The notes below the pieces were generated by a model that saw only the letters and a program-made list of their open reading frames with translations, made no database searches and was not told where the DNA came from. Positions 2,404-17,765 of a stretch of 18,783 nt of DNA are shown one piece after another. Position numbers and translations under genes: made by a program. The stretch spans positions 1-18,783 of the forward strand of contig JAQTWR010000008.1 of assembly GCA_028689195.1 (NCBI GenBank), written 5' to 3'. This stretch comes from Anaerolineales bacterium (GTDB lineage Bacteria > Chloroflexota > Anaerolineae > Anaerolineales > Villigracilaceae). Numbering within the stretch: position 1 is the first letter of the stretch; every line of letters starts with the position of its first letter.

Positions 2404-3222
2404 ATGGTTGACCCAAATTTCTTTAACGATGTTCCGATTTTTGAATTGCTCGACGCGGAAGAACGCAAAGCGCTCGCGGACCAAGTTTCAATCCGCAAAT
2501 TTAAGGCGGGGCAAGTCGTCTTTAAAGCGGGCGACCCCGGCGGGCTGGCGTACCTCGTGCAAAAGGGACTTATCCACGTTACGATTAAGGATGCAAATTT
2601 CGAGGACGCCATCGTAGGCGTCGCCGACGACGGCGGATTGGTCGGCATGTCTTCTTTAATGGCAAACGAGAATCACCAAACAACCGCCGTCGCAACCGAA
2701 GACACAACCGCCGTCGAAATTGACCGTAACGATATTATGGTATTGCTAACCGCAAAGCCAATGGCTGGCTTGGATATGATGACCATTATCGAAAAACAAC
2801 TGCGCGCAGCGCACAAACTCATGCGAACGCGCGTTTCTAAAAACCCCAACGAAGAGATCGAGGGTCAGGAAACTTTCGGCGAAAGAATGGCAGACGCGGT
2901 GGCAAAATTCGGCGGTTCATGGGGATTCGTCATCGTCTTCTTCATTGTACTGGTTACGTATACGACGATCAATTCCGTTGTCGGCAAACCCTGGGACCCA
3001 TATCCGTTTATTTTGCTGAATTTATTTCTATCCATGCTCGCGGCAATTCAAGCGCCTGTCATTATGATGAGTCAAAACAGGCAGGACTCAAAAGACCGCT
3101 TGCGAAGCGAACTCGATTATCGCGTTAACCTCAAAGCCGAGTTGGAGATCGAAGAACTGCTTCATCGCATGGGCAAGATTGAGGAAATTCTCGTAGAGCA
3201 TACATCCGAAAGCGGCGAGTGA
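2404..3222 (+). CDS. Cyclic-nucleotide-fold plus DUF1003 membrane protein
   Basis: Residues about 10-135 have the beta-roll pattern of the CRP-type cyclic-nucleotide-binding domain (FELLDAEERKAL, then KFKAGQVVFKAGDPGG). They are followed by a DUF1003 region (157-260) with two transmembrane segments at 172-191 and 200-222, the QNRQDSKDR block right after the second segment, and a charged helical tail. The phosphate-binding cassette looks degraded: where the family has FGE and a conserved Arg, this protein has LVGMSSL (79-85) and Thr-Thr (93-94). Binding of cAMP in the usual way is therefore doubtful, and the fold may serve as another sensor. The start is well supported by AAGGAG at 2393-2398, five bases before the ATG. 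It lies 47 bases behind the penicillin-binding protein gene with no terminator between, so the two may be cotranscribed. Function of DUF1003 is unknown. Confidence 0.87.
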   Translation: MVDPNFFNDVPIFELLDAEERKALADQVSIRKFKAGQVVFKAGDPGGLAYLVQKGLIHVTIKDANFEDAIVGVADDGGLVGMSSLMANENHQTTAVATEDTTAVEIDRNDIMVLLTAKPMAGLDMMTIIEKQLRAAHKLMRTRVSKNPNEEIEGQETFGERMADAVAKFGGSWGFVIVFFIVLVTYTTINSVVGKPWDPYPFILLNLFLSMLAAIQAPVIMMSQNRQDSKDRLRSELDYRVNLKAELEIEELLHRMGKIEEILVEHTSESGE

Positions 3223-3932: not shown

Positions 3933-5186
3933 TCAACTGCGAAATTCAAAAATTTGGTAATAGCCTATCTGAATCACATCCCCTTGACGAAGCGCAATGG
4001 GCGCGCCCCGCGGAACGGGATTCCCATTGACGTACGTTCCCAACGCGCTCGATTCGTCGCGAATATACGCGCCCCTTTTTGTAAGGAGAATTGTCGCGTG
4101 AGCGCGCGAAACGCTCTTTTCATACAAACGGATATGGCAATTCGCTCCCCTGCCGATTAACGTTTCGTGCCCCGCAAATTGGACAACCTGCCCGGATAAA
4201 TCTCCTGAGCGGGCGTATAGATGAGGAACGCCGGGTTTAATTGGAGGCTGAGGCTGTTGCGGCGTTGGGGGCTTTATCGGCGGAGGCGAAGGGATTTCAA
4301 ATATCGTTTTCGAATAATCCTCTTTCGGCTTGGGCGGTTCGACGCGAACGTCGCCGCACGCCTGAATAAAGGCGTTATAAAAATCAAGCATGGAGCCATA
4401 TCGCTCGGCGGGATTCTTGCTCGCGGCTTTTTGAATCACAGGAAAAACGCCCGACGGCAACTTTGAATTGAATTTTGAAAGCGGCGGCAAAGGCAGGTAG
4501 GAATGCTCGTAGGCGTAACGTTCGCGCGGCGTAGAACCGGGGCTTTTTGTATCGCCATGATACGGCACAACGCCGCCGCTCAACATTTGGTAAACCGTGA
4601 TGCCCAGCGAATAAATATCCGTTTGCGCGCTGACAATGCCTTGCGAAAACTGTTCGGGCGCCATGTAAGGAAGCGTCCCGCCCGCCGCTTGTTCGCGCGC
4701 AACATGCGCTACGCCAAAATCCGCGAGAAAAACGTCTTTGCCATTCTCGTGCAATAAAATATTGGACGGTTTTATATCGCAATGAAACAGCCGTTTTTGA
4801 TGCGCAAAGTTCAGCGCGCTGCAAATCGGTTGAAGGATGGGAAGCGCTTCGGACAGATACAAAGGGCGGTTTAAGTCTTCAATTCTTTTCTTCAAATCCG
4901 TCCCGTCCACCCAAGCCATCACGATGAAAATAATTCCGCGCTCGCTGCCGAATTCATAGAAGCGCACAATATAAGGGTGCGTCAAATCCTGCAAAAATCC
5001 CGCTTCTTTTTGAAACGCCTGAATCACCCTGGGGTTTTCAGACAAATCGCGGCGCAAAACCTTTACCGCCATCTTAGCGGAGCGCAATGTATCCCACGCG
5101 AGGTATACGTCAGCCATGCCGCCGCTGCCGACAATCTCGCGCAGGAAATACTGGTTCTTAAGGGTGTCGCCTTTAAGTGAACTCAT
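3933..5186 (-). CDS. Soluble Ser/Thr protein kinase with C-terminal FHA domain
   Basis: Hanks-type kinase of 417 residues, the last gene of the minus-strand cluster. Kinase domain about 13-275: glycine loop VGSGGMADV, Lys42, helix-C Glu61, catalytic loop HCDIKPSN (Asp137, Lys139, Asn142), DFG 156-158 and APE 176-178. The HRD arginine is Cys136 (non-RD). The activation segment is short, with Thr171 as its only Thr or Ser. A proline-rich linker (about 284-320) joins a canonical FHA domain (about 322-415) with Gly345-Arg346, Ser360-Arg361, His363 and Asn387, predicted to bind phosphothreonine. No transmembrane segment is visible, so it is probably cytosolic or docked to membrane partners through FHA. 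An in-frame ATG at 5213 would add nine residues and overlap the preceding gene. I prefer 5186, where the kinase leader starts 8 bases after that gene's stop; a GGGA lies close upstream, though it is a weak ribosome site. Confidence 0.9.
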   Translation of the reverse strand: MSSLKGDTLKNQYFLREIVGSGGMADVYLAWDTLRSAKMAVKVLRRDLSENPRVIQAFQKEAGFLQDLTHPYIVRFYEFGSERGIIFIVMAWVDGTDLKKRIEDLNRPLYLSEALPILQPICSALNFAHQKRLFHCDIKPSNILLHENGKDVFLADFGVAHVAREQAAGGTLPYMAPEQFSQGIVSAQTDIYSLGITVYQMLSGGVVPYHGDTKSPGSTPRERYAYEHSYLPLPPLSKFNSKLPSGVFPVIQKAASKNPAERYGSMLDFYNAFIQACGDVRVEPPKPKEDYSKTIFEIPSPPPIKPPTPQQPQPPIKPGVPHLYARSGDLSGQVVQFAGHETLIGRGANCHIRLYEKSVSRAHATILLTKRGAYIRDESSALGTYVNGNPVPRGAPIALRQGDVIQIGYYQIFEFRS

Positions 5187-5194
5187 AATCCCAT

Positions 5195-6808
5195 TTATGG
5201 ATTTGACAACCATGTGGGAATTTCAACGGTTGCAGTTTGGTTATACAAGATTTCGGTAATGAACGCAATGTACGGGCGTCCATTTGAAAAAGATATATTG
5301 TATTGAGGGTCGTCGTGATTTCTTACGGCGGTGAATTTATCTTTGAGGCTGGCAAGAGTTCGAATTTGATTTCCCTCGCCGACCGTCGTCGCGTATACTT
5401 TTCCGCTCGACGCAACATAGATAAAAAATTGACCGTTCGGACCTTCCGCAAAGTTTCCTTTTTCCCATGGACCCATTTCGTAATCCCCACCCGGATAACA
5501 AATCATCAAGTACATCCCTTTGCTGGTGGGCTTCTCGGTGATGCGCAAGTCATTGCAGAACGGAGAGGAAGGCGACGGAGCGACCGTGGGGGTGAAATGA
5601 AGTTCGCGTTCAATTTGCGTCGCCAGCGCGACGGCGGTCATCACTTGATAATCCGGCGTGCTAGTGACGGGACGGGAAGTCCGCGTTGGCAGAGGGTTCG
5701 AAAACGACGCCGAGGTCGCGCGCAAAGTAGGAGCCGCGGGAGTTTGCGCGCTCCGATTCCACAAAAACGCTCCGCCAATAACAGATGCGACGCATAACAG
5801 CAAGGCAATAAACGCGCCGCCGGCAAGTAACGCGGGGAGAAAAGATTTACTCGTTTTCTCAGGCGTTATCGCGGGAAGAGTCGCGTCGCCGACGGTCATT
5901 TTGAGGGCGGCGGGCAAAACGGCGCGATCCGCTATCGAAGCGGGCGAAATGTTCACCGCGGCGCAAATCGCTTCGAAAAATTCCTGGGCATTTTGATAGC
6001 GATTCACAGATTCTTTTTCCAGAGCCTTGAGCGTCACATTCGCCAAGCCTTCCGAAATTTCTGGATTAAGTTCGCGCGGATTCTGCACCTGCGAATGTAA
6101 CTGCTCCTGACGAATCCGCATACTCAGCGTGGGAGTGCTTTTATCAGATGACGTATTTGAAGCGGAACCCCTGAAAGGGCGGGCGCCGGTTAGCATTTCA
6201 TATAACATAATCCCAAGCGCGTACACGTCGGTCGCGGGCGTAACGGGTTCGCCGCGAATCTGCTCCGGCGGCATGTAAGCGGACGTACCCGCCGAATCAA
6301 TCGTGGTTGTGGCGCTTTCCGCGTGGCGGGCAATACCAAAATCGGTGAGGTAGATTTGCCCGCTGCTGTCAACCATCACATTACCGGGTTTAACATCGCA
6401 ATGCACCACGCCGTTGGCGTGGGCGTATCCCAAAGCGGCGCACAAAGCCTTGAAATAAATTAGGGTATCCTCCACAGGCAAGAGCGCGCCTTTGCGATGC
6501 TTCAAAACATCCTTCAAAGAGGGACCATCCACAAAACGCTCCAGCATGAAAACAACATCCATGCTGTTGTATAAGCCATAGAACGGCACAATATTGGGAT
6601 GTCCCAATTTTTGCAAATCGCGAGCCTCGCGCTGAAACTTCGTGAACATAGACGGGTCTTCCGCCAGTTCGCTATGCAATACCTTCATGGCAAGCGGCAC
6701 GTTGCGCTTCAAATCCCACACGCGATACACCGAACCCATGCCGCCTGCTGCGACAAACGCGTCAACACGGAATTGCGATAGTAAATTCTGTCCAACCAAA
6801 GTAGCCAT
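5195..6808 (-). CDS. Transmembrane Ser/Thr protein kinase with unknown ectodomain
   Basis: Hanks-type receptor-like kinase of 537 residues. Kinase domain about 13-285: Lys42, Glu61, HCDVKPGN (Asp138, Lys140, Asn143), DFG 156-158, PPE 180-182. Two departures stand out: the first Gly of the loop is Ala (AAGGMGSV) and the HRD Arg is Cys137. The activation segment carries Thr167-Thr169, Ser172 and Thr175, so autophosphorylation is possible. After a juxtamembrane stretch, a transmembrane helix (about 323-350) leads to a Thr/Pro-rich stalk and an extracytoplasmic domain (about 410-537) with exactly two cysteines (418 and 437) and no family I recognise. AAAGGAA seven bases upstream supports the ATG at 6808. 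It lies 68 bases behind the VWA lipoprotein gene. The inferred role is to sense an envelope or external cue and phosphorylate cluster partners. Confidence 0.9.
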   Translation of the reverse strand: MATLVGQNLLSQFRVDAFVAAGGMGSVYRVWDLKRNVPLAMKVLHSELAEDPSMFTKFQREARDLQKLGHPNIVPFYGLYNSMDVVFMLERFVDGPSLKDVLKHRKGALLPVEDTLIYFKALCAALGYAHANGVVHCDVKPGNVMVDSSGQIYLTDFGIARHAESATTTIDSAGTSAYMPPEQIRGEPVTPATDVYALGIMLYEMLTGARPFRGSASNTSSDKSTPTLSMRIRQEQLHSQVQNPRELNPEISEGLANVTLKALEKESVNRYQNAQEFFEAICAAVNISPASIADRAVLPAALKMTVGDATLPAITPEKTSKSFLPALLAGGAFIALLLCVASVIGGAFLWNRSAQTPAAPTLRATSASFSNPLPTRTSRPVTSTPDYQVMTAVALATQIERELHFTPTVAPSPSSPFCNDLRITEKPTSKGMYLMICYPGGDYEMGPWEKGNFAEGPNGQFFIYVASSGKVYATTVGEGNQIRTLASLKDKFTAVRNHDDPQYNISFSNGRPYIAFITEILYNQTATVEIPTWLSNP

Positions 6809-6876
6809 TATAAAATTCCTTTAGACCATTTCTGGACGCCTATAACGTCCTTATTTCATTTCTTTCTTGCGCAATC

Positions 6877-8397
6877 TTATTGTTGAAATTGAAGTTCGGT
6901 CGAGCCAACGCGGATGTGGTCGCCTGACCTCAAAACAGACGCGGTGATTCTCGCGCCATTCAAGTATACGCCGCTGGAACTTCCTATATCCTGAATAAAC
7001 CACTGACCGTTGGAGAATCGAATCCGCGCGTGGCTGCGCGAAACGGATGGATCTTCAACATAGACGCCGCTCGTGCGGCTGCGTCCGATAACCGAATTAT
7101 CGCGGATGGAAACGGCGCGCCCCGCTCCCTGCCCCGAAACAATATACAGCGTTGCGACCGCGCCGCCAACCCTTGCCGCGCCGCTTCGCTTTTGATTGCG
7201 CTTCGCCGAGGTTACGAAAATATACGTCAACAACCCGCCCAGAATTAATGGGACAAGGATCAGAATTGCCGGGAATTCTACTACGGGTTGCGGCGCGATT
7301 TTACCCATTCGCGCAGAAACGACCGCATTATATTCAATGATCCCTTCAGGGACTTCAACGCCAAGCGCGGTAAATGTCCAATTGCCCTGTATGGGATTCT
7401 GGATAATAACGCTCGCCAGCGACTTGGTCTGGAAAAAATGCGCGCCCGGATAATTTTGATCCACGATTTTTCCGTTTGGATCAACCAGAGACGGGTCAAG
7501 TTTGCTGCCGGGCCAGTTCAACGTAAACAACATTTCTTCCGTTCCCTGAGCAATATCGGCGCCGCCCAGTTGAACGGTTTGCCCCTGCGAGATGCTCCCC
7601 GTTTGCGCAAGCAGGATCGTCCCCGTAGACGAATGCCTGAGATTCACATAAACGTTTGCAAGTTCGGTTGCGTTTTGAGCGTTGTAGTAAGCGCCGCAGC
7701 CTGAATTTGCGGAAACCTGTTTAAGGAACTCTTCGTCAATAGAAGCCTCTCCGCTAACATTTCCGACCGTATTTGGAACCCCAAAGCCAACCGTGTAAAT
7801 ACAAATCCCCTTGCCGCCCGCTTCCGAAGCCAAATCTAAAACCTGTTGGCGCACCTCGTTTAAGTCGGTCAGTTCGACATTGCCCAGCCCGATATTGGGC
7901 ATCCCGTCGCTGAGCAGAATAATGATGGGCTTGCCGTCTTTATTCTGGAATTGATCAATCGCCAAACGCAAACCGTCCGACATGCCCGTTCCGTTGCGCG
8001 CCGATAGATTAACAAGCGCGGCGCGCGCGGAGTTTACGTCAGCGGACAGCGGAGAATCCACCCATGCGCCGTCAGAGAAACTGAGGATGCCCACTTCCGC
8101 CCCCTGCGACGCGGAATTCTCCGCCTGAATGATGTCCAAGATTCGCGCGCCCGCGCCCTTCGCGGAATCCAGTTTCGTAACGCCTGAAAGGTCCTGTTCG
8201 TCCATGCTGCCTGAAATATCAAAAAGCAGCGCGGTGGAAGACGTTCCAGAAGCGGTTTGAGAAGGAGTCTCTGTTACCGCATATTGAGCGACTGGATTGA
8301 AAACGGCTTTTCCTTTTGCGTTTTCAGACGCGCAGGAAGATGCAAAGATAAGAATGGCTACGACAAAAGCCAATTGAAGTTTTCGAAAAATATTCAT
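6877..8397 (-). CDS. VWA-FHA membrane lipoprotein
   Basis: A 506-residue protein that faces both sides of the membrane. The signal peptide ends in a lipobox-like ASSC with Cys22, although Ala at -3 is less usual than Leu. A von Willebrand A domain (about 54-255) has a complete metal site: DISGS (Asp60, Ser62, Ser64), Thr137 and Asp164 in LLSDG. A beta-rich region (about 256-365) follows, then one transmembrane helix (about 376-396). A cytoplasmic FHA domain (about 415-505) has Gly438-Arg439, Ser453-Arg454, His456 and Asn480. VWA domains bind proteins through the metal ion and FHA binds phosphothreonine, so this protein could couple an external contact to kinase status inside. AAGGAG lies six bases before the ATG. 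It sits between two kinase genes, 15 bases behind the upstream one. The outside/inside assignment is inferred from the signal and helix. Confidence 0.9.
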   Translation of the reverse strand: MNIFRKLQLAFVVAILIFASSCASENAKGKAVFNPVAQYAVTETPSQTASGTSSTALLFDISGSMDEQDLSGVTKLDSAKGAGARILDIIQAENSASQGAEVGILSFSDGAWVDSPLSADVNSARAALVNLSARNGTGMSDGLRLAIDQFQNKDGKPIIILLSDGMPNIGLGNVELTDLNEVRQQVLDLASEAGGKGICIYTVGFGVPNTVGNVSGEASIDEEFLKQVSANSGCGAYYNAQNATELANVYVNLRHSSTGTILLAQTGSISQGQTVQLGGADIAQGTEEMLFTLNWPGSKLDPSLVDPNGKIVDQNYPGAHFFQTKSLASVIIQNPIQGNWTFTALGVEVPEGIIEYNAVVSARMGKIAPQPVVEFPAILILVPLILGGLLTYIFVTSAKRNQKRSGAARVGGAVATLYIVSGQGAGRAVSIRDNSVIGRSRTSGVYVEDPSVSRSHARIRFSNGQWFIQDIGSSSGVYLNGARITASVLRSGDHIRVGSTELQFQQ

Positions 8398-8412
8398 TCC
8401 GTTCTCCTTGCG

Positions 8413-9927
8413 CTATTTTACGTTCACCGTAAGCTCGTAGATATAATCGCCTGCCGGGTAATTTGTATTGCCGTCGAAAATATCTTGGATAACCCGCATG
8501 GTTTCAACGTAGGCATACCTCCCCGGCGGCAAGCCCGAAAGAACGCCCGCTCTTTCCTGACACGACATTCCATTTTGAGACGCATTGAAAACGTTGAAAT
8601 TCGACTCGTCGATTTTCACGCCGTCAATTGCGGCGCTATAGATCATGTAACGTAAGTTTGCATTAAGCGTGGACGCATCCGACGCGCACCATCCCAAATT
8701 GAGCAAGACGGTTGTGTTGGCGGGAATATCCGCCTGCCAGTAATAATGTCCCGGCATTTCGGGGAAGTTCAAATTGCTTACGAAACTCCACAGGCTTTTT
8801 ATATTCGTATCGGCGTATGTATTATATGGGCGTACCGAAAATGAAAGGCGGGGAGCAAAGGTAGCCGTTGGCGCGGCAGGCGGAATTTGCGCGATAGGCG
8901 TTGCGTTATTAAAGTCGGGTTTGGGCGCAGATAGCCTTCCGCCGCCTATAACTAAAATTGATATAACCACAAGCATAAAACCCAGAGATACCAACCAAAA
9001 CGCGAGATTCTTTTTCTTTACGCGAACGATATTCTCGACCGCGTCATTCGTCGCGGCGGGGTCAACTCGAAGTTTGTTGTCGCTATAAAAATCGGCATGT
9101 TCGAGCGCGTTCAGCAAATCCATTGCGCTGCGAAAACGCCGCGAGGGGTCTTTTTCCAAACAGAATAAAATGATCCGCTCGAGCTGCGGAGAAATCGCGG
9201 AGTTGTAAGCGCGCGGCGAAGGCGGCAGGGAATGTAAGTGTTCCTGACGCACCCGCTCGGAGGGCGTCCCCGCCGTATTTGCAGATTGCCCGTTGAACGG
9301 ACGCGTTCCCGTCGTCATTTCATAAAGCAACACGCCTAAAGAATAAATATCCGAAGCGGGAATGGACGGCTCGCCGCGAATTTGTTCCGGCGGCATATAG
9401 CCGGGCGTGCCAACCTGCCCCAAATCGGACGAGTTCCCCGAAAACCGCGCGATGCCAAAATCGGTAACGAAGACTTTATCGTCGCGGCTTATCAATATGT
9501 TCGTGGGTTTGATGTCGCGGTGGACGTAACCGCTTTTATGGGCGTAATTCAACGCGGCGCAAATTCCGCGCATGATTTTCAAAATACGGTCGCGGGCAAG
9601 CGGTTTATTATCGCGCGCGCGCATTTCTTCGCGCAGGGTGACGCCGTCCACATAATCCATTACGATAAATAAAATATCATCGTCGCGTTCAAGATTATAG
9701 AAGCGGACAATATTCGGATGGTCTAGTTTCTTCAACGTAGTCGCTTCGTCGCGAAAATGTTCGACGAATGCGCGATTTGCGGCAAGTTCTGGGTTGAGGA
9801 CTTTTATAGCCAAATCTGCGTTGCGGTCTACGTCGCGCACCTTGTATACGCCAGCCATACCGCCTTTGCCGACGGCGGATAGAACGCGATAGCGCTTAGC
9901 GAGGGTTTGACCAACGAGGTTTGGCAT
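8413..9927 (-). CDS. Transmembrane Ser/Thr protein kinase with unknown ectodomain
   Basis: A 504-residue Hanks-type kinase and the only one of the three in this cluster with a standard catalytic loop, HRDIKPTN (136-143). Other key residues are Lys42, Glu61, DFG 156-158 and PPE 179-181; the glycine loop is VGKGGMAGV. The activation segment contains Ser163, Ser166, Ser167 and Thr174. A basic juxtamembrane patch (RVKKK, 302-306) precedes a transmembrane helix (308-328), a Pro/Ala/Thr stalk and an ectodomain of about 145 residues with two cysteines (414 and 456) and a beta-rich pattern; I do not recognise it. The intervals from the glycine loop to DFG match the 537-residue kinase almost residue for residue, and both have a polar insert before a RQE-x-LHS motif, so they are probably paralogues. 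The ATG lies 9 bases after the previous stop and has no clear Shine-Dalgarno sequence, which suggests translational coupling. Confidence 0.91.
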   Translation of the reverse strand: MPNLVGQTLAKRYRVLSAVGKGGMAGVYKVRDVDRNADLAIKVLNPELAANRAFVEHFRDEATTLKKLDHPNIVRFYNLERDDDILFIVMDYVDGVTLREEMRARDNKPLARDRILKIMRGICAALNYAHKSGYVHRDIKPTNILISRDDKVFVTDFGIARFSGNSSDLGQVGTPGYMPPEQIRGEPSIPASDIYSLGVLLYEMTTGTRPFNGQSANTAGTPSERVRQEHLHSLPPSPRAYNSAISPQLERIILFCLEKDPSRRFRSAMDLLNALEHADFYSDNKLRVDPAATNDAVENIVRVKKKNLAFWLVSLGFMLVVISILVIGGGRLSAPKPDFNNATPIAQIPPAAPTATFAPRLSFSVRPYNTYADTNIKSLWSFVSNLNFPEMPGHYYWQADIPANTTVLLNLGWCASDASTLNANLRYMIYSAAIDGVKIDESNFNVFNASQNGMSCQERAGVLSGLPPGRYAYVETMRVIQDIFDGNTNYPAGDYIYELTVNVK

Positions 9928-9936
9928 AAGGACTAA

Positions 9937-10728
9937 TTACATTCGAAATCGAAACGTCGTTTCGCCGATGCAGACTTCGTCGCCGTCGTTCAAACGCTGG
10001 GCTTGAATGCGCTTGCCGTTAACAAAAGTCCCGCCGGCGCTTTCCTGGTCTTGAATAAACCACGAACCTTGCGCGCCGCGAATACGAACATGCACGCGCG
10101 AGATTTGCGGATCGTTAATAGGGCAATCATTTTGACTGCTTCTGCCAATGTGAAAATCGGGGTTGGAAATTGGCACGCTGCGCGGCGCATTTCCGCTGAC
10201 CAATTCAAGACGCGGCGCGGCGCTGGGTTGATGTATCGGCGGCGGCGGAGAATAAACGGGCGGCGCAAAATTTGGCGTCGGAGCGCCATATTGAGGTCGA
10301 GTATCTTTGCGCGCGGGTTCGAACAATTCGAGGATGATTCCAAATCCCGCCGCGCAGTATCCTAAAAACAAAACAAAAAAACCGGCTTTGATTTTAAATT
10401 CCAAACCTAATTGTTGCATTTGCGAATATAGCGTGGCAACCGAAATTAGAATGCCCAATATTCCCAATCCCAATCCGCCGCCTTCGCCAAAAATAAACAG
10501 GTATCGCTGCTGGTTGGTGCGCGCAACAAGGAAGGAAAAGACGATGGCGATCAACGCGCCCGCAAGAACCAGATAAAGAACGCCTTGATTAAGTTGAGAC
10601 GCCGCCGTATTCATACTAAAAGACTGCTCCTGCCCCACGCAAGAGACCGCCATGCTTGGAATAAAAAATCCAAACAGAATCAAAAACGATCCCGCCCGTA
10701 CAAGCCATTTCTTTATGCTGTTATCCAT
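9937..10728 (-). CDS. Four-TM membrane protein with C-terminal FHA domain
   Basis: A 263-residue protein with four hydrophobic segments (about 10-30, 47-69, 82-102 and 113-135), a proline-rich linker (145-172) and a canonical FHA domain (about 173-262) with Gly195-Arg196, Ser210-Arg211, His213 and Asn237. With an even number of helices, both ends are expected in the cytoplasm, placing the FHA domain where it can bind phosphorylated kinases or substrates. The membrane part matches no family I can name, although a short extracytoplasmic loop follows the first helix (Cys30 lies at its end). GGGAGG six bases before the ATG supports the start. The gene is followed after 9 bases by a kinase gene and is preceded by a strong intergenic hairpin (10747-10769). 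Likely a membrane scaffold; this is inference from domain content. Confidence 0.87.
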   Translation of the reverse strand: MDNSIKKWLVRAGSFLILFGFFIPSMAVSCVGQEQSFSMNTAASQLNQGVLYLVLAGALIAIVFSFLVARTNQQRYLFIFGEGGGLGLGILGILISVATLYSQMQQLGLEFKIKAGFFVLFLGYCAAGFGIILELFEPARKDTRPQYGAPTPNFAPPVYSPPPPIHQPSAAPRLELVSGNAPRSVPISNPDFHIGRSSQNDCPINDPQISRVHVRIRGAQGSWFIQDQESAGGTFVNGKRIQAQRLNDGDEVCIGETTFRFRM

Positions 10729-10746
10729 TTCGCGCCTCCCGAAACG

Positions 10747-10769
10747 CCCCTCTCCTTTTGGGAGAGGGG
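10747..10769. repeat. CT/GA-rich intergenic hairpin, perfect 9-bp stem
   Basis: CCCCTCTCC (10747-10755) and GGAGAGGGG (10761-10769) are perfect complements around a five-base loop. The hairpin lies in the 66-base gap between two FHA genes of the minus-strand cluster. No U-run follows it on the minus strand, so it is not a normal terminator. It could slow decay or partly block transcription, or be a copy of a dispersed palindromic repeat; the similar element at 3242-3262 favours the latter. Confidence 0.65.
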
Positions 10770-10794
10770 AATTAACTCGAGGGAAAAATCCGCA

Positions 10795-11490
10795 TTAACT
10801 TTCAGCGGTTTTTTTAGATCTTTTGGCTGCTGTGCGCGGTTTTCGTTTTGCCTTTGGTTCGAGCAATTTGATGACAAAAACCGTCTCGCCGATTCTAATC
10901 GTATCGTTTTCGTACAGCGCGGTGGCTTCGCGGATTCTCTTGTCGTTGACATACGTTCCGTTGGCAGAGGCAAGGTCCCAAATAATGAAATCGTCGTCTT
11001 CTATCGTGAATTTGGCGTGCCTGCTGGAAACCTTCGGGTCGTCGAGAATAAGCGCGCCCTCTTTCCGTCCGACAACCGTGCCTTGTTTTACAGGATAAAA
11101 ACGCCCGCGACGCGAACCTTCTTTGACCCATAACAAACCCAAAGTGACGCTCAACGGCTCTGCGAGTTCGGTTTTATCCAGTTCGTCGTCATCGCCGCGC
11201 CCGCGACGCGGAAGTTCGGTGGCTTCTTCTTCGTCGTAGTCCAAAATACCGCGACCAGAACGGCGCGAGGCGGGAAGTTCAGTCGCGCCTTCATCGCCGC
11301 CATTTCCGCCGCCTTGCTCGTCTGGAAGCAAGGTCGGCGCGGTGCGTCCGCCATAAATATCGGTCGGAAGGTCGTCATCCAAAGAGATAGGCATTCCGGG
11401 ACGCGGAGACGCTCCCGCGTGCGGATAAGGACAAGCGCCTAGCGAGGCGTCGTAGGGACCGTGTTCGGGGCAAAATGCTTCTTGAGCCAT
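10795..11490 (-). CDS. Soluble FHA adaptor with Cys/His motif and ATELP repeats
   Basis: A 231-residue protein with no membrane segment. The N-terminus has a compact Cys/His cluster (Cys7, His10, Cys20, His24) that could hold a zinc ion. An acidic, low-complexity middle (35-112) contains GATELP (69-73), EATELP (90-94) and KTELAE (106-111), three similar Thr-centred motifs. An FHA domain (about 115-208) has Gly141-Arg142, Ser156-Arg157, His158 and Asn182. The last 20 residues are strongly basic (Lys/Arg-rich, 211-227). The layout recalls GarA and OdhI, small FHA proteins whose N-terminal threonines are phosphorylated by Ser/Thr kinases and then bound by their own FHA domain; that likeness is in layout, not proven homology. 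AAGGAG is seven bases before the ATG. It lies 16 bases after the three-TM FHA gene. Likely a kinase substrate and adaptor of the cluster. Confidence 0.88.
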   Translation of the reverse strand: MAQEAFCPEHGPYDASLGACPYPHAGASPRPGMPISLDDDLPTDIYGGRTAPTLLPDEQGGGNGGDEGATELPASRRSGRGILDYDEEEATELPRRGRGDDDELDKTELAEPLSVTLGLLWVKEGSRRGRFYPVKQGTVVGRKEGALILDDPKVSSRHAKFTIEDDDFIIWDLASANGTYVNDKRIREATALYENDTIRIGETVFVIKLLEPKAKRKPRTAAKRSKKTAES

Positions 11491-11506
11491 AGTAAATTCT
11501 CCTTAC

Positions 11507-12325
11507 TTAACGAATCGCGCCGACAAAGCGCAGAACGGTGTTATCGCCTAAGCGGATTTCATCATCGGGTTCGAGCAATACGGGTTCGCGCACTACGCGT
11601 TCATTGACGCGGGTAAGTCCCTTTGAACCGAGATCATACAACTTGAAGCGTCCATTTTGCTCGACGATTTTGGCGTGCTGGCGGCTGACGGTGCTGTCGC
11701 CTGTGAGGTAAATGTCATTGCTGGGAAGGCGACCAATGACGGTTTCATGTTCGCAGAGTTGATAATTTTTCCCGTTAGAGGCAACCAGCCACGCCTGAAC
11801 CTTGCGCTTATTAGACGGCGGCGGCGCGGACGAAACGCCGGTATTGTTCGCGGGCTGCCGATAACCTCCCCTGTCGTTATTGGGCGCGTGCATAATGATC
11901 GGGTCGCGCGGTCTATCCATAGCGGCGCACTCAGGGCATTGACCTAAAACCTTTTCGTACGCGCCGTGCATTCCGCGCGGACAACCCATCATCCCTTGAA
12001 AAGTGACGTAGTATCCAATCGCCAAAACGACGGGGAGTAGCCCGCCTAACACGCCAAGATAGAAGACCGGCTCGGCAAAAAGCGCGAGCGGCGAAAGCAG
12101 CGGATTGGCGGGGTCGGTGGTGAAGCGATAAACAATCGCGGGCAGAATCAAAGCGGCGGAAAATAATATGCCAAGTTTCCAGCCCAGCGCGGGAAGGCGG
12201 CGCGTTCCGCTGTCATAGATGATTGCGATGACAGCCGCCACGCCAAACATCAGGAATATTGTCCAACCGCCCAAGCCTAATATTCCGTAATAGAACCATA
12301 CAAAAAACGCGTTTGTTACAGTCAT
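11507..12325 (-). CDS. Three-TM membrane protein with Cys/His motif and FHA domain
   Basis: A 272-residue protein with hydrophobic segments at about 12-36, 49-68 and 86-108. Next comes a Cys/His cluster (Cys115, His120, Cys130, Cys133), a flexible linker (140-172) and an FHA domain (about 175-270) with Gly198-Arg199, Ser214-Arg215, His217 and Asn241. The Cys/His block has the pattern CP-x(n)-HG-x-Y-x(3)-LG-x-CP, nearly identical to the N-terminus of the next protein in the cluster, so the two are likely related or bind the same partner. The FHA domain is expected in the cytoplasm with the N-terminus outside. GGAGG lies eight bases before the ATG. A possible internal promoter precedes it (12352-12381). 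I do not recognise the membrane part. Confidence 0.87.
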   Translation of the reverse strand: MTVTNAFFVWFYYGILGLGGWTIFLMFGVAAVIAIIYDSGTRRLPALGWKLGILFSAALILPAIVYRFTTDPANPLLSPLALFAEPVFYLGVLGGLLPVVLAIGYYVTFQGMMGCPRGMHGAYEKVLGQCPECAAMDRPRDPIIMHAPNNDRGGYRQPANNTGVSSAPPPSNKRKVQAWLVASNGKNYQLCEHETVIGRLPSNDIYLTGDSTVSRQHAKIVEQNGRFKLYDLGSKGLTRVNERVVREPVLLEPDDEIRLGDNTVLRFVGAIR

Positions 12326-12351
12326 TTTTTCATCCTCCGAAAATTTGATGG

Positions 12352-12381
12352 ATTATTATTTTTGTGGCGCGATATTAACAA
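12352..12381 (-). promoter_or_regulatory. Possible internal promoter of the FHA/kinase genes
   Basis: On the minus strand TTGTTA (12376-12381), an 18-base spacer and AATAAT (12352-12357) lie just after the phosphatase stop codon. This is the most AT-rich gap inside the cluster. It would give a leader of about 20 bases ending in the GGAGG site of the three-TM FHA gene. The match to the sigma-70 consensus is only fair. Confidence 0.35.
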
Positions 12382-13878
12382 TTACTTGAGAGGGGTCTTA
12401 GTAGCAGTTACAGTAAAAATAGAAATAGGGGTTTCAAATTGCAGCATGTCTACATTCAACGACACGCCTGGCGGAATCTTAATGCAACCGCTATACCATA
12501 CCCAACCTATTACGCTGTCTGCTGTGCGAACCTTCAACCACACATCGCTTGCTCCATGAGCGCGCCCCTTTGCCAAACCAGTTACAGCGAAAGCGTTATG
12601 CAATTCTATGCTCCCAATACCTTTGCCATTGTTTGGATCGTCTAATATGTAAACTAATCCGTTTGCATTTTGAGCACATTCGTTTGTTGCCACAACCAAA
12701 TCTACATTGGTCGCCGTTGGGGAGTTTGTTTCTGTCGGGGCAAGGGATGGGGTTTGCGTCGGCTCTGGCGGCGCCTGTTGTTGCGGCGGCGCGGCTGGAG
12801 GCGCTTCTTGTTGCGCTACAGGCGGCTCTGTAGCAAGAGGCGGGACAGAAGCAAGAGACGGCGTCTCAAGATTTTCTTTGGTAACAGAAAAAGCCGCCAG
12901 TCCTGCGGCAACCGCCAAAGCCAAAAACAAAACGAGTAAAAGCATCACAATTGCCGCCTGCCATTTTCTCTCATTCAAAACAGAGAGAAAATCCATTTCC
13001 CGTTTGCGATTTTTCTTGCCGCGATTTGCCTTGTACGATGGCAAAGTCGGCTGCAAGGTATCCAAATCCACATCTTTTGGACGGATAATCGGGATGGCGG
13101 GAGATTCCGAAGTCAGCGATGGTTGATAGAAAACGACAATAACAGAGATATTATCCGCGCCGCCTTTGTCGTTGGCATATTTTATAAATCTTTCGGCAAG
13201 ATCTTCGGGCTCGCCTATCGCCATCATGCTGGCAACGTCTTCTTTCAAAGCGTAACGCGTAAGCCCGTCGGAGCATAAAAGGATTTTATCGCCGCTTTGC
13301 AGGCGCAACGGTTCGTATGTTTCCACCGCCACATCGGGGTCGCCGCCCAAACTTCGCGTAAGCCGATTTTTGATGCTGGAAGCCATCGCTTCGGCTTCGG
13401 TCATTTCGCCCTGATCCACCATCTCGCCGACAAAACTATGATCGCGGTTGATCTGCGTCGCGCCGCCGTTACGAATCAAATATGCGCGGCTGTCGCCTAC
13501 GTTCGCCACATACAAAAAACCTTCGCGCACCACCGCCGCGACAATCGTCGTCGCCATGCGGGTATCGTGCTGCGCTGCGTATTCGTGAATTTCCTCATTG
13601 ACTTGCTTGAGAATGGAGCGTAAATATCCAAGCGGTTCGATCAAGCCGGGCTGATCGGGATCTGGATGGTACGTCTGATAATAATCAAATACGAGTTTTT
13701 GCGCGGCGTACTGACTGGCGCGCTCGCCCTTTGCCGCGCCGCCCACGCCGTCGGCAACAACGTAAAGGGAGCCGTAATTCTTTAATTCGGCGGAGTCGGT
13801 CGGCTCAAAATATGCGATGAAGTCCTCGTTATTTTTTCGCCGTCCCTGATCGGAACGTCCGGCGGTTTGAGTATTCAC
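12382..13878 (-). CDS. Membrane-anchored PP2C-type Ser/Thr phosphatase with ectodomain
   Basis: A 498-residue phosphatase that should remove phosphate from phospho-Ser/Thr of the cluster's kinases and their targets. PP2C domain about 5-252 has all metal-binding blocks: NNED (16-19), ADGVGG (42-47), VGDSRAYL (127-134), CSDGLT (202-207) and GGADN (239-243). A linker leads to a transmembrane helix (about 307-330), a Pro/Gln/Thr-rich stalk (335-392) and an extracytoplasmic domain (about 395-475) with two cysteines (401 and 465) and a WLKV...GWVW pattern that suggests an SH3-like fold. Most bacterial PP2C regulators lack such an outer domain. The frame is open from a TTG at 13896, but AGGAG at 13885-13889 lies six bases before a GTG at 13878, and the phosphatase fold starts there. 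The gene starts 14 bases after the VWA-FHA stop. Confidence 0.92.
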   Translation of the reverse strand: MNTQTAGRSDQGRRKNNEDFIAYFEPTDSAELKNYGSLYVVADGVGGAAKGERASQYAAQKLVFDYYQTYHPDPDQPGLIEPLGYLRSILKQVNEEIHEYAAQHDTRMATTIVAAVVREGFLYVANVGDSRAYLIRNGGATQINRDHSFVGEMVDQGEMTEAEAMASSIKNRLTRSLGGDPDVAVETYEPLRLQSGDKILLCSDGLTRYALKEDVASMMAIGEPEDLAERFIKYANDKGGADNISVIVVFYQPSLTSESPAIPIIRPKDVDLDTLQPTLPSYKANRGKKNRKREMDFLSVLNERKWQAAIVMLLLVLFLALAVAAGLAAFSVTKENLETPSLASVPPLATEPPVAQQEAPPAAPPQQQAPPEPTQTPSLAPTETNSPTATNVDLVVATNECAQNANGLVYILDDPNNGKGIGSIELHNAFAVTGLAKGRAHGASDVWLKVRTADSVIGWVWYSGCIKIPPGVSLNVDMLQFETPISIFTVTATKTPLK

Positions 13879-13884
13879 TAAAAT

Positions 13885-13890
13885 CTCCTG
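13885..13890 (-). promoter_or_regulatory. Ribosome binding site that sets the phosphatase start
   Basis: CAGGAG on the minus strand, six bases before the GTG at 13878. It argues for that GTG over the TTG at 13896, which would place this site inside the coding sequence. Confidence 0.75.
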
Positions 13891-13892
13891 AA

Positions 13893-15779
13893 TCAAGAAT
13901 CAAAACGCAAAACGGTTTCGCCAAGTCGGATGACGTCGCCGCGCATCAACGCCTGTTTTTGCGCCACAGGAATATTGTTCACGATGACGGGATTTTCCGC
14001 GCTAAGACTATAGATGAAGTATTGTCCCTGTTCAAAACGTATCGCCGCATGACGGCGCGACGCGTTCAATCCCTTTAGCGGAATATCGTTCTCTTCGCGC
14101 TTTCTTCCCAACTTCGTTTCTGTCGCGCCCAACCGCCAAACTTGATTTGGGTTCATGCCTTCCAATTCATACAGCGACGGTTTGCCCGACGCGGCGGCGG
14201 CGATTCCCTTGCGCTTTCGAGAGAGCAGCGCCAGCGGAATCACAAGCGCGGCAAGCGCGAGAATAAAAATCACAACTACGCCGCCCAATCCGCCCGGCTC
14301 GACATTTACGAAGATAGTCTCCGTCTCGGTGGTAAATAAACCAGCCGCGTCATACGCGATGATTCTGACGGGATACTGCCGCGACTCGTTGGGCTTCCAA
14401 TCTGCGGAGTATTCGTTTGTGTTCGAATCTGCCGGAACAGAAGCGACCTCGCGGTTATCCACCATGAAGGCAACCCTGCTCAGCGCGACGCCATCCAGCG
14501 CGGTTACCCTTGCCTTAATCTGTACCGTCCCCGAAAGCGACGCGCCGTCTTGCGGCGAAACAACTTCAATTGTGATTGGCGGTTGAACGTTCAACGCAAC
14601 GCTTGCCTGCCCCGTATTGCCGCCAACATCCGTAACCTTTACGAGAAAATTATGCGTATCCGCCGTCAGGCCAGAGTTGAACGAATTCCATTCATATGAA
14701 CCATCGGCAGATTTGGCGATAGGGATTTGCGCGCCATCCACAGAAATATCCACGCTTTTGATAAGCGCGGGGGGCCAGTCAATTACGGGAGAAAATTTCA
14801 CCAATCCGCCAACCACTTGATTTGGCTGAAGGTCGGGCAAGGTTATTGGAATGGAACTTTGTTTGGCTATGAAAAGATAAGTCGTTTTTTCCTGTCCGCC
14901 GCCGTAACTAACCGTAGCCAATAATTCATGTTGTTTATCATCGGCGGGGAAAGAAGATGTATAGCGAATTAAATATTGCTCGCGCAGGCTGCTCAATACT
15001 TCGTCGAACGATTTACTCAACTCTGATACGCTCGGAAGAATCTTCGCACTTCCGCCGGTTAGTTCCGCCATTTTCTTGAGTTCAACCGCGTTGACTTGCC
15101 CAAACCCCATTGGATATATAGGAATAGACGCGGCGCTTAATTCGCGCATTGCGTCATCCGACTTGAACACTCCCCTGCCCGTGTCTTTTCCGTCCGTAAT
15201 CAAAACGATAATCCGCCGCCCCGATTGACTCTCCAGCGAGTTAAGCCCCTTGATCACCGCGTCGTACAAAGACGTATATTGACCCTCAGGCTGCAATGAT
15301 TGTATGGCTTGCGTCACGCGCGCTTTGTCCTCGGTCAACGGCAGGATTTCATTCGGCTTATCGGAAAAATTGATTATTGCGACTCTATCTTTTGGCGATA
15401 GTTTCCCCACAAACGCAATCGCCGCCTCCATTGATTTTTGCATTGGCGTAGGCGAACCCTTACCGCGCATACTTCCGCTCGTATCCATAATCAATACAAT
15501 GGATAATGGCTGTTCCTTATTCTGAACCGCCTGAAAAGCCTGGGCGGCAATTGGAGAGCCGTCTTCCGTCAGGACAAACGCATCTTGCTTCAAATTTTTA
15601 ATAGGAAGCCCGTTCGCGTCTGAAACGGAAATATACGCGTCCACTTGCGGGAATTTTGAATTATCCAGATAATCTACGCGCGCGCGGAATCCCTCAAGCG
15701 CGGTCGCGGGCAACGGAAACAACAGCCCAATGAGAATCATCGAGCGAATCAGGTACTTGGTGACAATTTGCAGTTTCAC
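13893..15779 (-). CDS. VWA-FHA membrane protein, first gene of the cluster
   Basis: A 628-residue protein. A signal peptide (about 1-27, ending in PATA) exports a short beta domain (30-85) and a von Willebrand A domain (about 90-270) with an intact metal site: DTSGS (Asp99, Ser101, Ser103), Thr169 and Asp196 in LITDG. Two immunoglobulin-like or Big-type beta domains follow (about 335-398 and 400-493), then one transmembrane helix (498-520) and a cytoplasmic FHA domain (about 545-627) with Gly558-Arg559, Ser574-Arg575, His577 and Asn601. The layout parallels the 506-residue VWA-FHA protein, but without a lipobox and with added beta domains. The frame is open as far as 15944, but the extra 55 residues look unlike a signal and cross the promoter region. 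AAGGAG at 15785-15790, five bases before the GTG at 15779, settles the start. Confidence 0.91.
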   Translation of the reverse strand: MKLQIVTKYLIRSMILIGLLFPLPATALEGFRARVDYLDNSKFPQVDAYISVSDANGLPIKNLKQDAFVLTEDGSPIAAQAFQAVQNKEQPLSIVLIMDTSGSMRGKGSPTPMQKSMEAAIAFVGKLSPKDRVAIINFSDKPNEILPLTEDKARVTQAIQSLQPEGQYTSLYDAVIKGLNSLESQSGRRIIVLITDGKDTGRGVFKSDDAMRELSAASIPIYPMGFGQVNAVELKKMAELTGGSAKILPSVSELSKSFDEVLSSLREQYLIRYTSSFPADDKQHELLATVSYGGGQEKTTYLFIAKQSSIPITLPDLQPNQVVGGLVKFSPVIDWPPALIKSVDISVDGAQIPIAKSADGSYEWNSFNSGLTADTHNFLVKVTDVGGNTGQASVALNVQPPITIEVVSPQDGASLSGTVQIKARVTALDGVALSRVAFMVDNREVASVPADSNTNEYSADWKPNESRQYPVRIIAYDAAGLFTTETETIFVNVEPGGLGGVVVIFILALAALVIPLALLSRKRKGIAAAASGKPSLYELEGMNPNQVWRLGATETKLGRKREENDIPLKGLNASRRHAAIRFEQGQYFIYSLSAENPVIVNNIPVAQKQALMRGDVIRLGETVLRFDS

Positions 15780-15845: not shown

Positions 15846-15874
15846 AGTATACAGTATCTTTATAAATTTGGCAT
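15846..15874 (-). promoter_or_regulatory. Candidate promoter of the nine-gene minus-strand cluster
   Basis: On the minus strand ATGCCA (15869-15874, 4 of 6 to TTGACA), a 17-base spacer and TATACT (15846-15851, 5 of 6 to TATAAT). It would give a leader of about 60 bases before the GTG at 15779. It lies in the AT-rich part of the divergent gap, back to back with the presumed ABC exporter promoter. Confidence 0.5.
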
Positions 15875-15902
15875 GGAGAATTATATCAGCGCCAGCCCAA
15901 AG

Positions 15903-15908
15903 TATAAT
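15903..15908 (+). promoter_or_regulatory. Candidate -10 box of the ABC exporter gene
   Basis: A perfect TATAAT on the plus strand, about 48 bases before the ATG at 15957. No convincing -35 box stands 16-18 bases upstream, so the promoter would need an activator or the match is chance. If real, it lies inside the longest open frame and supports the shorter start. Confidence 0.35.
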
Positions 15909-15956
15909 CACGGCGCCGCAGAACATCGCGGCAAGGAAGCGCAAAGACTAAAAACT

Positions 15957-17765
15957 ATGAAAACAAAAATTATCCCTCCCGTATTTATCACCCAATCTGA
16001 GGACGCGCTGGATAAAGGCTACGATCCCAAAGTGGCGCGCGGACTCTTGCGTTTTATAAAGCCCTACGCGGGGCAGATGGCTCTCGCGCTGTTCTTTATG
16101 ATTCTCGTTACGGCGGCTTCTGTTTCGGGTCCATACTTTGTGAAGTTGGCAATTGACAATGGAATCAGAGCGGGCGACGCGGCGGCGCTAAAAAAGATTG
16201 TGCTGGCGTTTTTCATCGTCTCCACCGTTCAATTGGGATTCAACTATCTGCGCGTAAGAATCATGTCGCGGGTGGGGCAGCATGTTTTATACGATGTGCG
16301 TACCGCCATGTTCGACCATTTGCAAAAACTTTCGCTTGGGTTTTACAACCGTTACAGCGTAGGACGCGTAATTACGCGCGTCATCAACGACGTAGGAACG
16401 CTGCGCGAATTCATCACATGGGCGGTTCTTGCCATTGTGCGAAACCTGCTCGGCATCATCGGCACAATCATCGCCATGCTGACGTTGAATTTGAAGTTGT
16501 CGCTATTGACCTTCACCGTCCTGCCTTTCATGGCGCTGGCGACGATTCTCTTTCGTCAAGTTGCGCGCAGAAATTATCGCAGGGTGCGCGCGGCAATTTC
16601 GTGGGCAAACTCGACGCTGGCTGAAAACATCAACGGCGTGCGCGTGGTGCAGGCGTTCTCGCGTCAGGAACATAATTACAAAAACTTCAAGGAATACGTC
16701 AATCAATATTTTTACGAAACCAGCCTCGACGCGGCAAAGGTCGCCTCGGTATACACCCCAATTGTGGAGGCGCTTGGCGCGGCGGCGACCGCGCTTGTCG
16801 TTTATGTGGGCGGAGCCGCTGTGCTGGGAGAATCCATCACGCCGGGCGTGTTGATTGCTTTCGTGTTGTATGTAGACCGTTTCTTTGAACCCATCCGCGA
16901 CCTGAGCCGCCGCTTCGACACGCTGCAATCCACAATGGCTGGCGGAGAGAGAATCCTCGATCTGTTGAATACAACGGTGGACGTCGAAGACGCGGTCAAT
17001 TCGCGCGCAATGCCCCACATCGCGGGCAAAGTCCAATTTGAAAACGTATCGTTTCACTATTCGGACGATCCCGCGTTAGTGTTGGATCAAATTAATTTAA
17101 CTGCGGCCGCCGGTCAAACGATTGCGCTGGTCGGCGAAACGGGCGCAGGCAAGACCACCATTGTCAAACTGCTTGCGCGATTTTACGACCCAACCGCGGG
17201 ATTTGTCCGCGTGGACGACGTTGACCTGCGCGATGTAACGCAGCAATCCTTACGCAAACAGATGGGCATGGTGCTACAAGACCCGTTTCTGTTCAACGGC
17301 TCGGTGAAGGAAAATATTTTATTCGGCAGATTAAACGCCAGCGACAAAGACGTTATCGCCGCCGCGCAAGCCGTAGGCGCGCACGAATTCATCGTCAACT
17401 TGAAAAACGGATATGATACTTCGGTGGAAGAAGGCGGCGCGACGTTGAGCGTCGGTCAGCGCCAGTTGCTTTCATTTGCGCGCGCGCTGCTGGCTGATCC
17501 GCGTATTTTGATTTTGGACGAAGCCACATCTTCGGTGGATATTCAAACCGAGCAAATCATTCAAAAAGCGCTGGCGCGTTTACTGAAAGGACGCACGTCT
17601 TTTGTCATCGCGCATCGCTTATCTACCATCACCAACGCGGATAAGATCGTGGTCATAGAGGGCGGCGAGATCAGCGAACAGGGGACGCATCGGGAATTAA
17701 TGGCGCTGCAAGGAAAATATTCCAGGTTGTATCAAACAGGGTTCGGGGAAGAAAGCGTCCATTGA
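15957..17765 (+). CDS. ABC exporter half-transporter (membrane plus ATPase domains)
   Basis: A 602-residue MsbA/MdlB-type protein that should dimerise in the membrane and use ATP to move a substrate outward, such as a lipid, peptide or drug; the substrate cannot be read from sequence. The six-helix membrane domain covers about 38-325. The nucleotide-binding domain (about 355-595) has Walker A GETGAGKTT (393-401, Lys399), Q-loop Gln441, signature LSVGQRQ (497-503), Walker B ILILDE (517-522, catalytic Glu522), D-loop SSVD and the switch His553. All are intact. LSVGQ instead of LSGGQ is common in this branch. The frame is open from an ATG at 15873, but those 28 residues look unstructured and overlap a -10-like box, so I chose 15957; no clear ribosome site precedes it. 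Some relatives act as heterodimers with an adjacent partner; none is present here. Confidence 0.92.
   Translation: MKTKIIPPVFITQSEDALDKGYDPKVARGLLRFIKPYAGQMALALFFMILVTAASVSGPYFVKLAIDNGIRAGDAAALKKIVLAFFIVSTVQLGFNYLRVRIMSRVGQHVLYDVRTAMFDHLQKLSLGFYNRYSVGRVITRVINDVGTLREFITWAVLAIVRNLLGIIGTIIAMLTLNLKLSLLTFTVLPFMALATILFRQVARRNYRRVRAAISWANSTLAENINGVRVVQAFSRQEHNYKNFKEYVNQYFYETSLDAAKVASVYTPIVEALGAAATALVVYVGGAAVLGESITPGVLIAFVLYVDRFFEPIRDLSRRFDTLQSTMAGGERILDLLNTTVDVEDAVNSRAMPHIAGKVQFENVSFHYSDDPALVLDQINLTAAAGQTIALVGETGAGKTTIVKLLARFYDPTAGFVRVDDVDLRDVTQQSLRKQMGMVLQDPFLFNGSVKENILFGRLNASDKDVIAAAQAVGAHEFIVNLKNGYDTSVEEGGATLSVGQRQLLSFARALLADPRILILDEATSSVDIQTEQIIQKALARLLKGRTSFVIAHRLSTITNADKIVVIEGGEISEQGTHRELMALQGKYSRLYQTGFGEESVH

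Follow-up and report, generated by a model that had tools for sequence, protein, structure and literature searches.

Bacterial genes for Ser/Thr kinases, phosphatases and FHA proteins often adjoin, and the role of the FHA readers in such sets is mostly unclear. The question raised by contig JAQTWR010000008.1 of an Anaerolineales bacterium (assembly GCA_028689195.1; 18,783 nucleotides, hereafter the window) is whether its run of nine kinase, phosphatase, FHA and VWA genes forms one signalling module, and what such a module would do. The window is the whole contig of a draft metagenome-assembled genome (MAG) of 2.85 Mb, 82% complete. The explanation that we prefer, with a probability of about 0.55 as a whole, is an inherited membrane module whose core is constant and whose receptors are exchangeable, working by the mechanism proposed below.

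The nine genes are collinear at 3933-15779, all on the minus strand, and are named in order of transcription V2, P, F3, F2, F1, K3, V1, K2 and K1. V2 (13893-15779), the first gene of the run, codes for a signal peptide, a VWA domain with a metal ion-dependent adhesion site (MIDAS), an Ig-like Big_7 domain, a transmembrane (TM) segment and an FHA domain; its open frame extends to 15944, but the GTG at 15779 is very probably the start codon, because the relatives align from that later start. P (12382-13896) is a PP2C phosphatase with a TM segment and a variable ectodomain, F3 (11507-12325) has three TM segments, a Cys motif and an FHA domain, F2 (10795-11490) is soluble, with an N-terminal Cys/His motif and an acidic Thr-rich tail carrying a D-x-T-x-[LI] motif before an OdhI/GarA-like FHA domain, and F1 (9937-10728) has four TM segments followed by an FHA domain. 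K3 (8413-9927) and K2 (5195-6808) are composed of a kinase domain, a TM segment and an ectodomain, that of K2 giving no convincing Pfam match. Between them lies V1 (6877-8397), with a signal peptide, a VWA domain with MIDAS that is predicted to be extracytoplasmic, a TM segment and an FHA domain predicted to be cytoplasmic. K1 (3933-5213) is a soluble Ser/Thr kinase with a C-terminal FHA domain. The catalytic loop reads HCD in K1 and K2, and HRD in K3 as well as in its orthologue from the compared genome G773 (G-numbers denote compared genomes, G000 being the window's own).

Pfam found three Pkinase, one PP2C, two VWA and six FHA domains, the latter above cut-off in K1, V1, F1, F2, F3 and V2, and a hydropathy scan placed TM segments in seven of the nine products (none in K1 and F2); both agree with the part count and the seven membrane proteins given by a preliminary description of the run. 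A single transcript is likely for the nine genes, because neighbouring gene ends are separated by only -19, 68, 15, 9, 66, 16, 56 and -4 nt, from K1 to V2 in coordinate order. The cluster holds 6 of the 12 FHA matches and 3 of the 19 kinase matches of the window's genome. The probability of six FHA domains within 11.8 kb is about 2e-11 by a plain Poisson count, which is evidence of clustering only, because it ignores tandem duplication.

The order V2-P-F3-F2, in the same orientation, was found in eight genomes besides the window (G009, G068, G238, G326, G572, G603, G665 and G773), the conserved cluster proteins being 29-79% identical to those of the window (74% for V2, 79% for F3, 77% for F2 and 70% for V1 in G773). 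F1 stands next after F2 in five of the eight (G009, G068, G326, G603 and G773), its position being taken in G572 by a different four-TM FHA protein and in G665 by an FHA protein without TM segments. Three further loci carry parts of the set: V2-P followed by the contig end in G002, V2-P-kinase only in G035, and in G437 K1 and a 798-amino-acid protein in which a kinase region is joined to an F3-type FHA domain (L062:2549-4945). V1 was found in five genomes. In a tree of the 32 kinase domains from the cluster loci that measure 200 amino acids or more, with the five kinases of G773 left out, 29 domains formed one clade with support of 100/98, the K1-type kinases of eight loci forming one subclade; 9 other kinases of the window's genome, among 16 further matches, and 9 from looser modules fell outside. 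One inherited membrane signalling module is very likely, because eight other genomes share the gene order and the cluster kinases belong mostly to one family, and chance clustering is rejected on account of the conserved order. If defined by V2-P-F3-F2 and kinases of the HCD clade, the module is present in the window and in these eight genomes, the clade being assessed without G773. The preliminary description, which had read the run as one membrane-bound complex and named scattered homologues in related genomes as evidence to the contrary, is partly borne out, as to one conserved module, since the homologues are not scattered.

The three window kinases keep the Gly-rich loop, the VAIK-type Lys, the catalytic Asp and the DFG motif, and their nearest solved structures are PknB, StkP and PknA. 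The HCD catalytic loop was present in 31 of 34 cluster kinases (27/29 in the clade and 4/5 in G773), compared with one of 54 control kinase domains from 152 other loci, the remaining controls being 44 HRD, 5 HLD, 1 HHD and 3 off-pattern. Upstream of the G009 cluster, a protein of 1061 amino acids (L045:7404-10589) carries two kinase domains and a PBP_like_2 domain.

The reader and phosphatase core is constant in the compared sequences, whereas otherwise similar clusters differ in how many kinases they have and in the ectodomains. G773 has five kinases against three in the window, with no K1 on its contig, G068 has ten over about 42 kb, interspersed with other genes, and tandem duplication of cluster kinases is evident. 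Two neighbouring kinases of G603 are 99.6% identical in the kinase domain and 45% in the ectodomain; over about 1000 nt the identity of their DNA is 89-100% per 100 nt, and it then drops to 39-70%. A recent duplication or gene conversion with replacement of the ectodomain is likelier for this pair than selection on the protein, because third codon positions are 92% alike, and the differences found within the part that the two share speak against a plain assembly artefact, although the genome is a draft MAG. A pair of neighbours in G773 with kinases 94% alike has one member with a K3-type ectodomain, and G068 paralogues with kinases 73-78% alike showed no detectable ectodomain match in the three pairs tested. 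The receptor ectodomains that could be identified include PD40 propellers and weak matches to 3-keto-disaccharide-hydrolase and SH3_3. The PP2C ectodomain is also variable, that of the window having no match to that of G773, with SH3_3 in 2/8 and a weak LysM in 1/8, whereas the DG and DN motifs, which we take to be the metal-site motifs, were kept in all eight aligned orthologues. The PP2C domain of P is itself clear, but scored 200.6 bits with the Stp1/IreP model NF033484, below its cut-off of 230.

The residues that bind phosphothreonine were kept in nearly all of 50 distinct FHA domains from the cluster loci (Arg in 48, Ser in 49, His in 46 and Asn in 49). The best solved relatives of F2 are OdhI and GarA (PDB, E 1.4e-11), whose tails are phosphorylated and then bound by their own FHA domain. 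F2 likewise joins an FHA domain to a Thr-containing N-terminal tail; four of its Thr do not vary across five sequences, and D-x-T-x-[LI] is found in 10/10. It differs by its Cys/His motif and by another Thr motif, and its score with the OdhI model, 57.8 bits, is below the cut-off of 200; all six FHA proteins also scored below the cut-off of the FhaB model NF049868 (33.3-69.5 bits against 125). F2 may be the best candidate substrate and hub, because it combines the Thr tail with an FHA domain nearest to those of OdhI and GarA. For the VWA proteins, DxSxS and the later Asp of the MIDAS were kept in 16/16 sequences (V2 11/11, V1 5/5); V2 scored 110 bits with the VWA model TIGR03436, above its cut-off of 81.25, and V1 was not listed.

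We propose tentatively, from the domain architecture, that the receptor kinases, with a cytoplasmic kinase domain, one TM segment and an ectodomain of their own, would sense something at or outside the envelope. Once activated they would phosphorylate threonines, first in the acidic tail of F2, at the D-x-T-x-[LI] before its FHA domain, and also in one another; the FHA domains of K1, F1, F2, F3, V1 and V2 would then dock on these phosphothreonines at the membrane, and the PP2C, with its own variable ectodomain, would reset the phosphorylation state. The most likely output would be V1 and V2, the outer MIDAS binding a ligand or matrix upon engagement of the inner FHA domain, which we liken to the inside-out switching of integrins; this preferred output is unproven. 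Such a module would be a compact natural circuit, with writers, readers, an eraser and exported VWA proteins in a fixed order, in which HCD serves as a sequence mark for the kinases and sensors have been swapped naturally on one core. With it one could test how new inputs are added to a single phosphothreonine circuit in bacteria, and whether an outer VWA domain can be controlled from inside by FHA docking. The module is not described in the titles or abstract openings that were searched, a coverage that leaves out most subscription papers and is no proof of novelty.

Several observations weigh against this explanation. The G238 cluster has no F1, and K1 or V1 is missing from some clusters. 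Three of the 32 kinase domains (the G035 kinase and both domains of the 1061-amino-acid G009 protein) fall outside the clade, and three of the 34 cluster kinases depart from HCD, with HRD in the window K3 and its G773 orthologue and HAD in one other. In the G773 pair only 69% of third codon positions are alike, so selection alone could explain it. The Thr of D-x-T-x-[LI], the last one, is the only Thr of the F2 tail that is invariant across all ten sequences, and a crude pattern found the MIDAS Thr in only 12/16 VWA sequences (V2 8/11, V1 4/5).

The cluster is rare. In overlapping samples, F3 was found in 8 of 400 genomes of the window's order and in 5 of 400 of the phylum, one of these, G207, being a weak match outside the order, and V2 was found in 4 of 57 genomes of the window's genus but in 0 of the 32 with at least 90% completeness and at most 5% contamination. 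The remaining V2-like matches are VWA proteins without the cluster neighbourhood. When the genome contigs were scanned with F2, at least two of the 80 loci listed matched nearly all of it (42-50% identity), and most others among the matches listed covered only its FHA part. Elsewhere in the phylum (G207, G167, G260 and G095), VWA, PP2C or FHA-TM genes accompany kinases in looser sets of reshuffled order, no PP2C being seen on the G167 contig.

The cluster is accessory and often lost or gained, probably with some transfer. RpoB of the window's genome is 90% identical to that of G009, and V2 only 39%. The RpoB tree places G002 and G009 as sisters (97/95), whereas in the V2 tree G002 joins the window and G773 (100/100), a pairing of G002 with G009 being rejected (p 7e-60). 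The RpoB rejection of the window with G002 is mild (p 0.043) and the window's RpoB is partial (604 amino acids); since monophyly of the genus is not rejected for V2 (p 0.148), the case for transfer rests on G009. Mis-binning was weighed because all four carriers of the genus are less complete or more contaminated bins; against it stand carriers in good bins outside the genus (G068, G238 and G326) and the flanks of the G009 and window contigs, which match genus genes. The cluster of the window has other flanking genes than those of G002 and G009.

One could ask whether the circuit is instead an envelope-homeostasis switch like those of PknB and other PASTA kinases, with receptors that sense wall or sugar fragments and tune wall synthesis. 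Wall-facing features are not lacking: the SH3_3 and LysM matches of the PP2C ectodomains, the weak SH3_3 and 3-keto-disaccharide-hydrolase matches of some receptors, an M14 peptidase gene after the kinases at the end of the G326 cluster (L043:14078-15076), with an untyped gene of the same size in G603, a GH3 gene that ends the G773 cluster (L206:90-1931), and in the window a class A penicillin-binding protein (PBP) gene at 80-2356. That gene, however, is on the plus strand with two genes between it and the cluster, no wall gene recurs beside the core in the loci read, and a rare accessory cluster would be an odd housekeeping circuit. No PASTA domain was found by Pfam in the window kinases, which scored 246.4, 260.1 and 303.9 bits with the PASTA-kinase model NF033483, below its cut-off of 450. 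The mycobacterial locus, fhaA-fhaB-pstP-rodA-pbpA-pknA-pknB, similarly has membrane Hanks kinases, a PP2C with a TM segment and FHA readers in one run, but the window run has no RodA, class B PBP or PASTA, and has in addition two VWA-TM-FHA proteins, FHA proteins with several TM segments and a kinase set that varies. We regard the envelope switch as unlikely.

A defence or cell-death module, with invaders recognised by receptor kinases that diversify and an effector set off in response, in the manner of KKP or TerY-P-like systems, would account for the rarity, the changing location and the diversified ectodomains. The G068 array contains a caspase-domain gene (L047:13851-14933; caspase 55 bits) with an EAD7 tail below the Pfam cut-off (21.6 bits against 32) and a second EAD7 gene (L047:17903-18487; 41.9 bits); among 13 genomes searched, EAD7 was confined to this one. 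Domains of this kind link sensors to effectors in conflict systems (PMC7159879). No effector gene was seen in the window or in the arrays read other than that of G068, and PADLOC, in which a known defence system was sought, returned only kinase models of a generic kind and a single weak one for PP2C, with no match for the VWA or FHA-only proteins. Carriage by a plasmid found no support, F3 having no plasmid match, nor did carriage by a phage, as a viral scan with one narrow pattern, a weak test, confirmed none of 25 stretches.

KKP kinases with a PP2C confer phage defence (PMC11341870). The window resembles KKP in its paired kinases, one with FHA, and its PP2C, and differs in its receptor-type kinases and extra FHA and VWA proteins; its gene order and domains are not those of KKP (PP2C, then two kinases with cold-shock and FHA tails), no cold-shock domain being found by Pfam. 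The TerY-P triad shares the VWA, PP2C and kinase domain types, and according to PMC11090510 its kinase carries a fused zinc ribbon or OB-fold. The window VWA proteins, in contrast, are exported and joined to FHA domains and its receptor kinases have TM segments; Pfam found no zinc ribbon or OB-fold in the window kinases, and PADLOC gave no match for V1 and V2. A defence role appears still less probable than an envelope one.

Kinases that have lost the HRD Arg are termed non-RD, and many of those in plants are immune receptors; the cluster shares with the plant receptors Cys in place of the Arg, tandem receptors and a PP2C counterpart. We claim convergence only and no relatedness; the ectodomains are unrelated and an immune function is without support in the cluster. 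That the module is a convergent bacterial counterpart of a diversifying recognition system (immunity or kin recognition), with non-RD (HCD) receptor kinases whose kinase domains stay alike, replaced outer domains, one fixed core and an integrin-like VWA-FHA or, in one relative, caspase executioner, is doubtful.

Regulation of a secretion system encoded elsewhere is very improbable. The parts are those of the T6SS PpkA-Fha-PppA set (T6SS, type VI secretion system) and of type VII systems (T7SS), T7SSc to f having kinases, phosphatases, FHA proteins and a vWA protein (PMC11217815). But no secretion ATPase was recognised in the window and no ATPase or WXG100 partner stands at its cluster; WXG100, the T7SS mark tested, was above cut-off in only 1/9 carriers searched (G773 and G437 left out), away from the cluster contig, and the TagH/Fha model TIGR03354 gave 27.4-46 bits against a cut-off of 120.25, no genome-wide T6SS gene search being made. 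The preliminary description had thus rightly noted the absence of secretion genes, besides the conserved module, and had missed the variable kinase set, the HCD signature, the rarity and changing location, the looser versions elsewhere in the phylum and the caspase link in one relative. That promiscuous kinase and FHA genes merely piled up by tandem duplication, without forming a functional module, is equally hard to credit in spite of the plain tandem duplication, being contradicted by an order conserved across families at 29-60% identity and by the kept catalytic, FHA and MIDAS residues.

Within the window, base composition revealed no foreign stretch, and the 18 promoter-like sites were near the 13.2 ± 4.0 expected by chance. 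Adjoining the cluster are a cNMP-DUF1003 gene (2404-3222, plus strand), for which a search of the other 56 genus genomes gave nothing at E 1e-40, and near it a small lipoprotein-like gene, also on the plus strand, opposite to the cluster. A link to the PBP and DUF1003 neighbours was rejected, no match being found in the regions around the G002 and G009 clusters. An ABC half-exporter (15873-17765) diverges from V2; 37 of 57 genus genomes have it, most of them lacking the cluster, and a link to it was likewise rejected. In 6 of the 7 genus loci compared its partner half-transporter lies next to it, whereas in the window the partner is missing. A clean insertion next to a split ABC pair was discarded and no clean empty site is recognised, because the partner is missing beside the ABC gene in the cluster-less G571 too.

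Related sets occur elsewhere in the window's genome. On contig C120 (L004:2581-5351), a TM-FHA protein gene adjoins a PP2C gene, near DUF7544 and GMP-synthase-like genes. Contig C300 (L007:295-4461) carries a separate triad of DnaJ-VWA, PP2C and kinase genes, and similar sets with an FHA gene were found in G034 (L008) and G030 (L011); this joining of a J-domain to VWA in a kinase/phosphatase triad is worth a study of its own.

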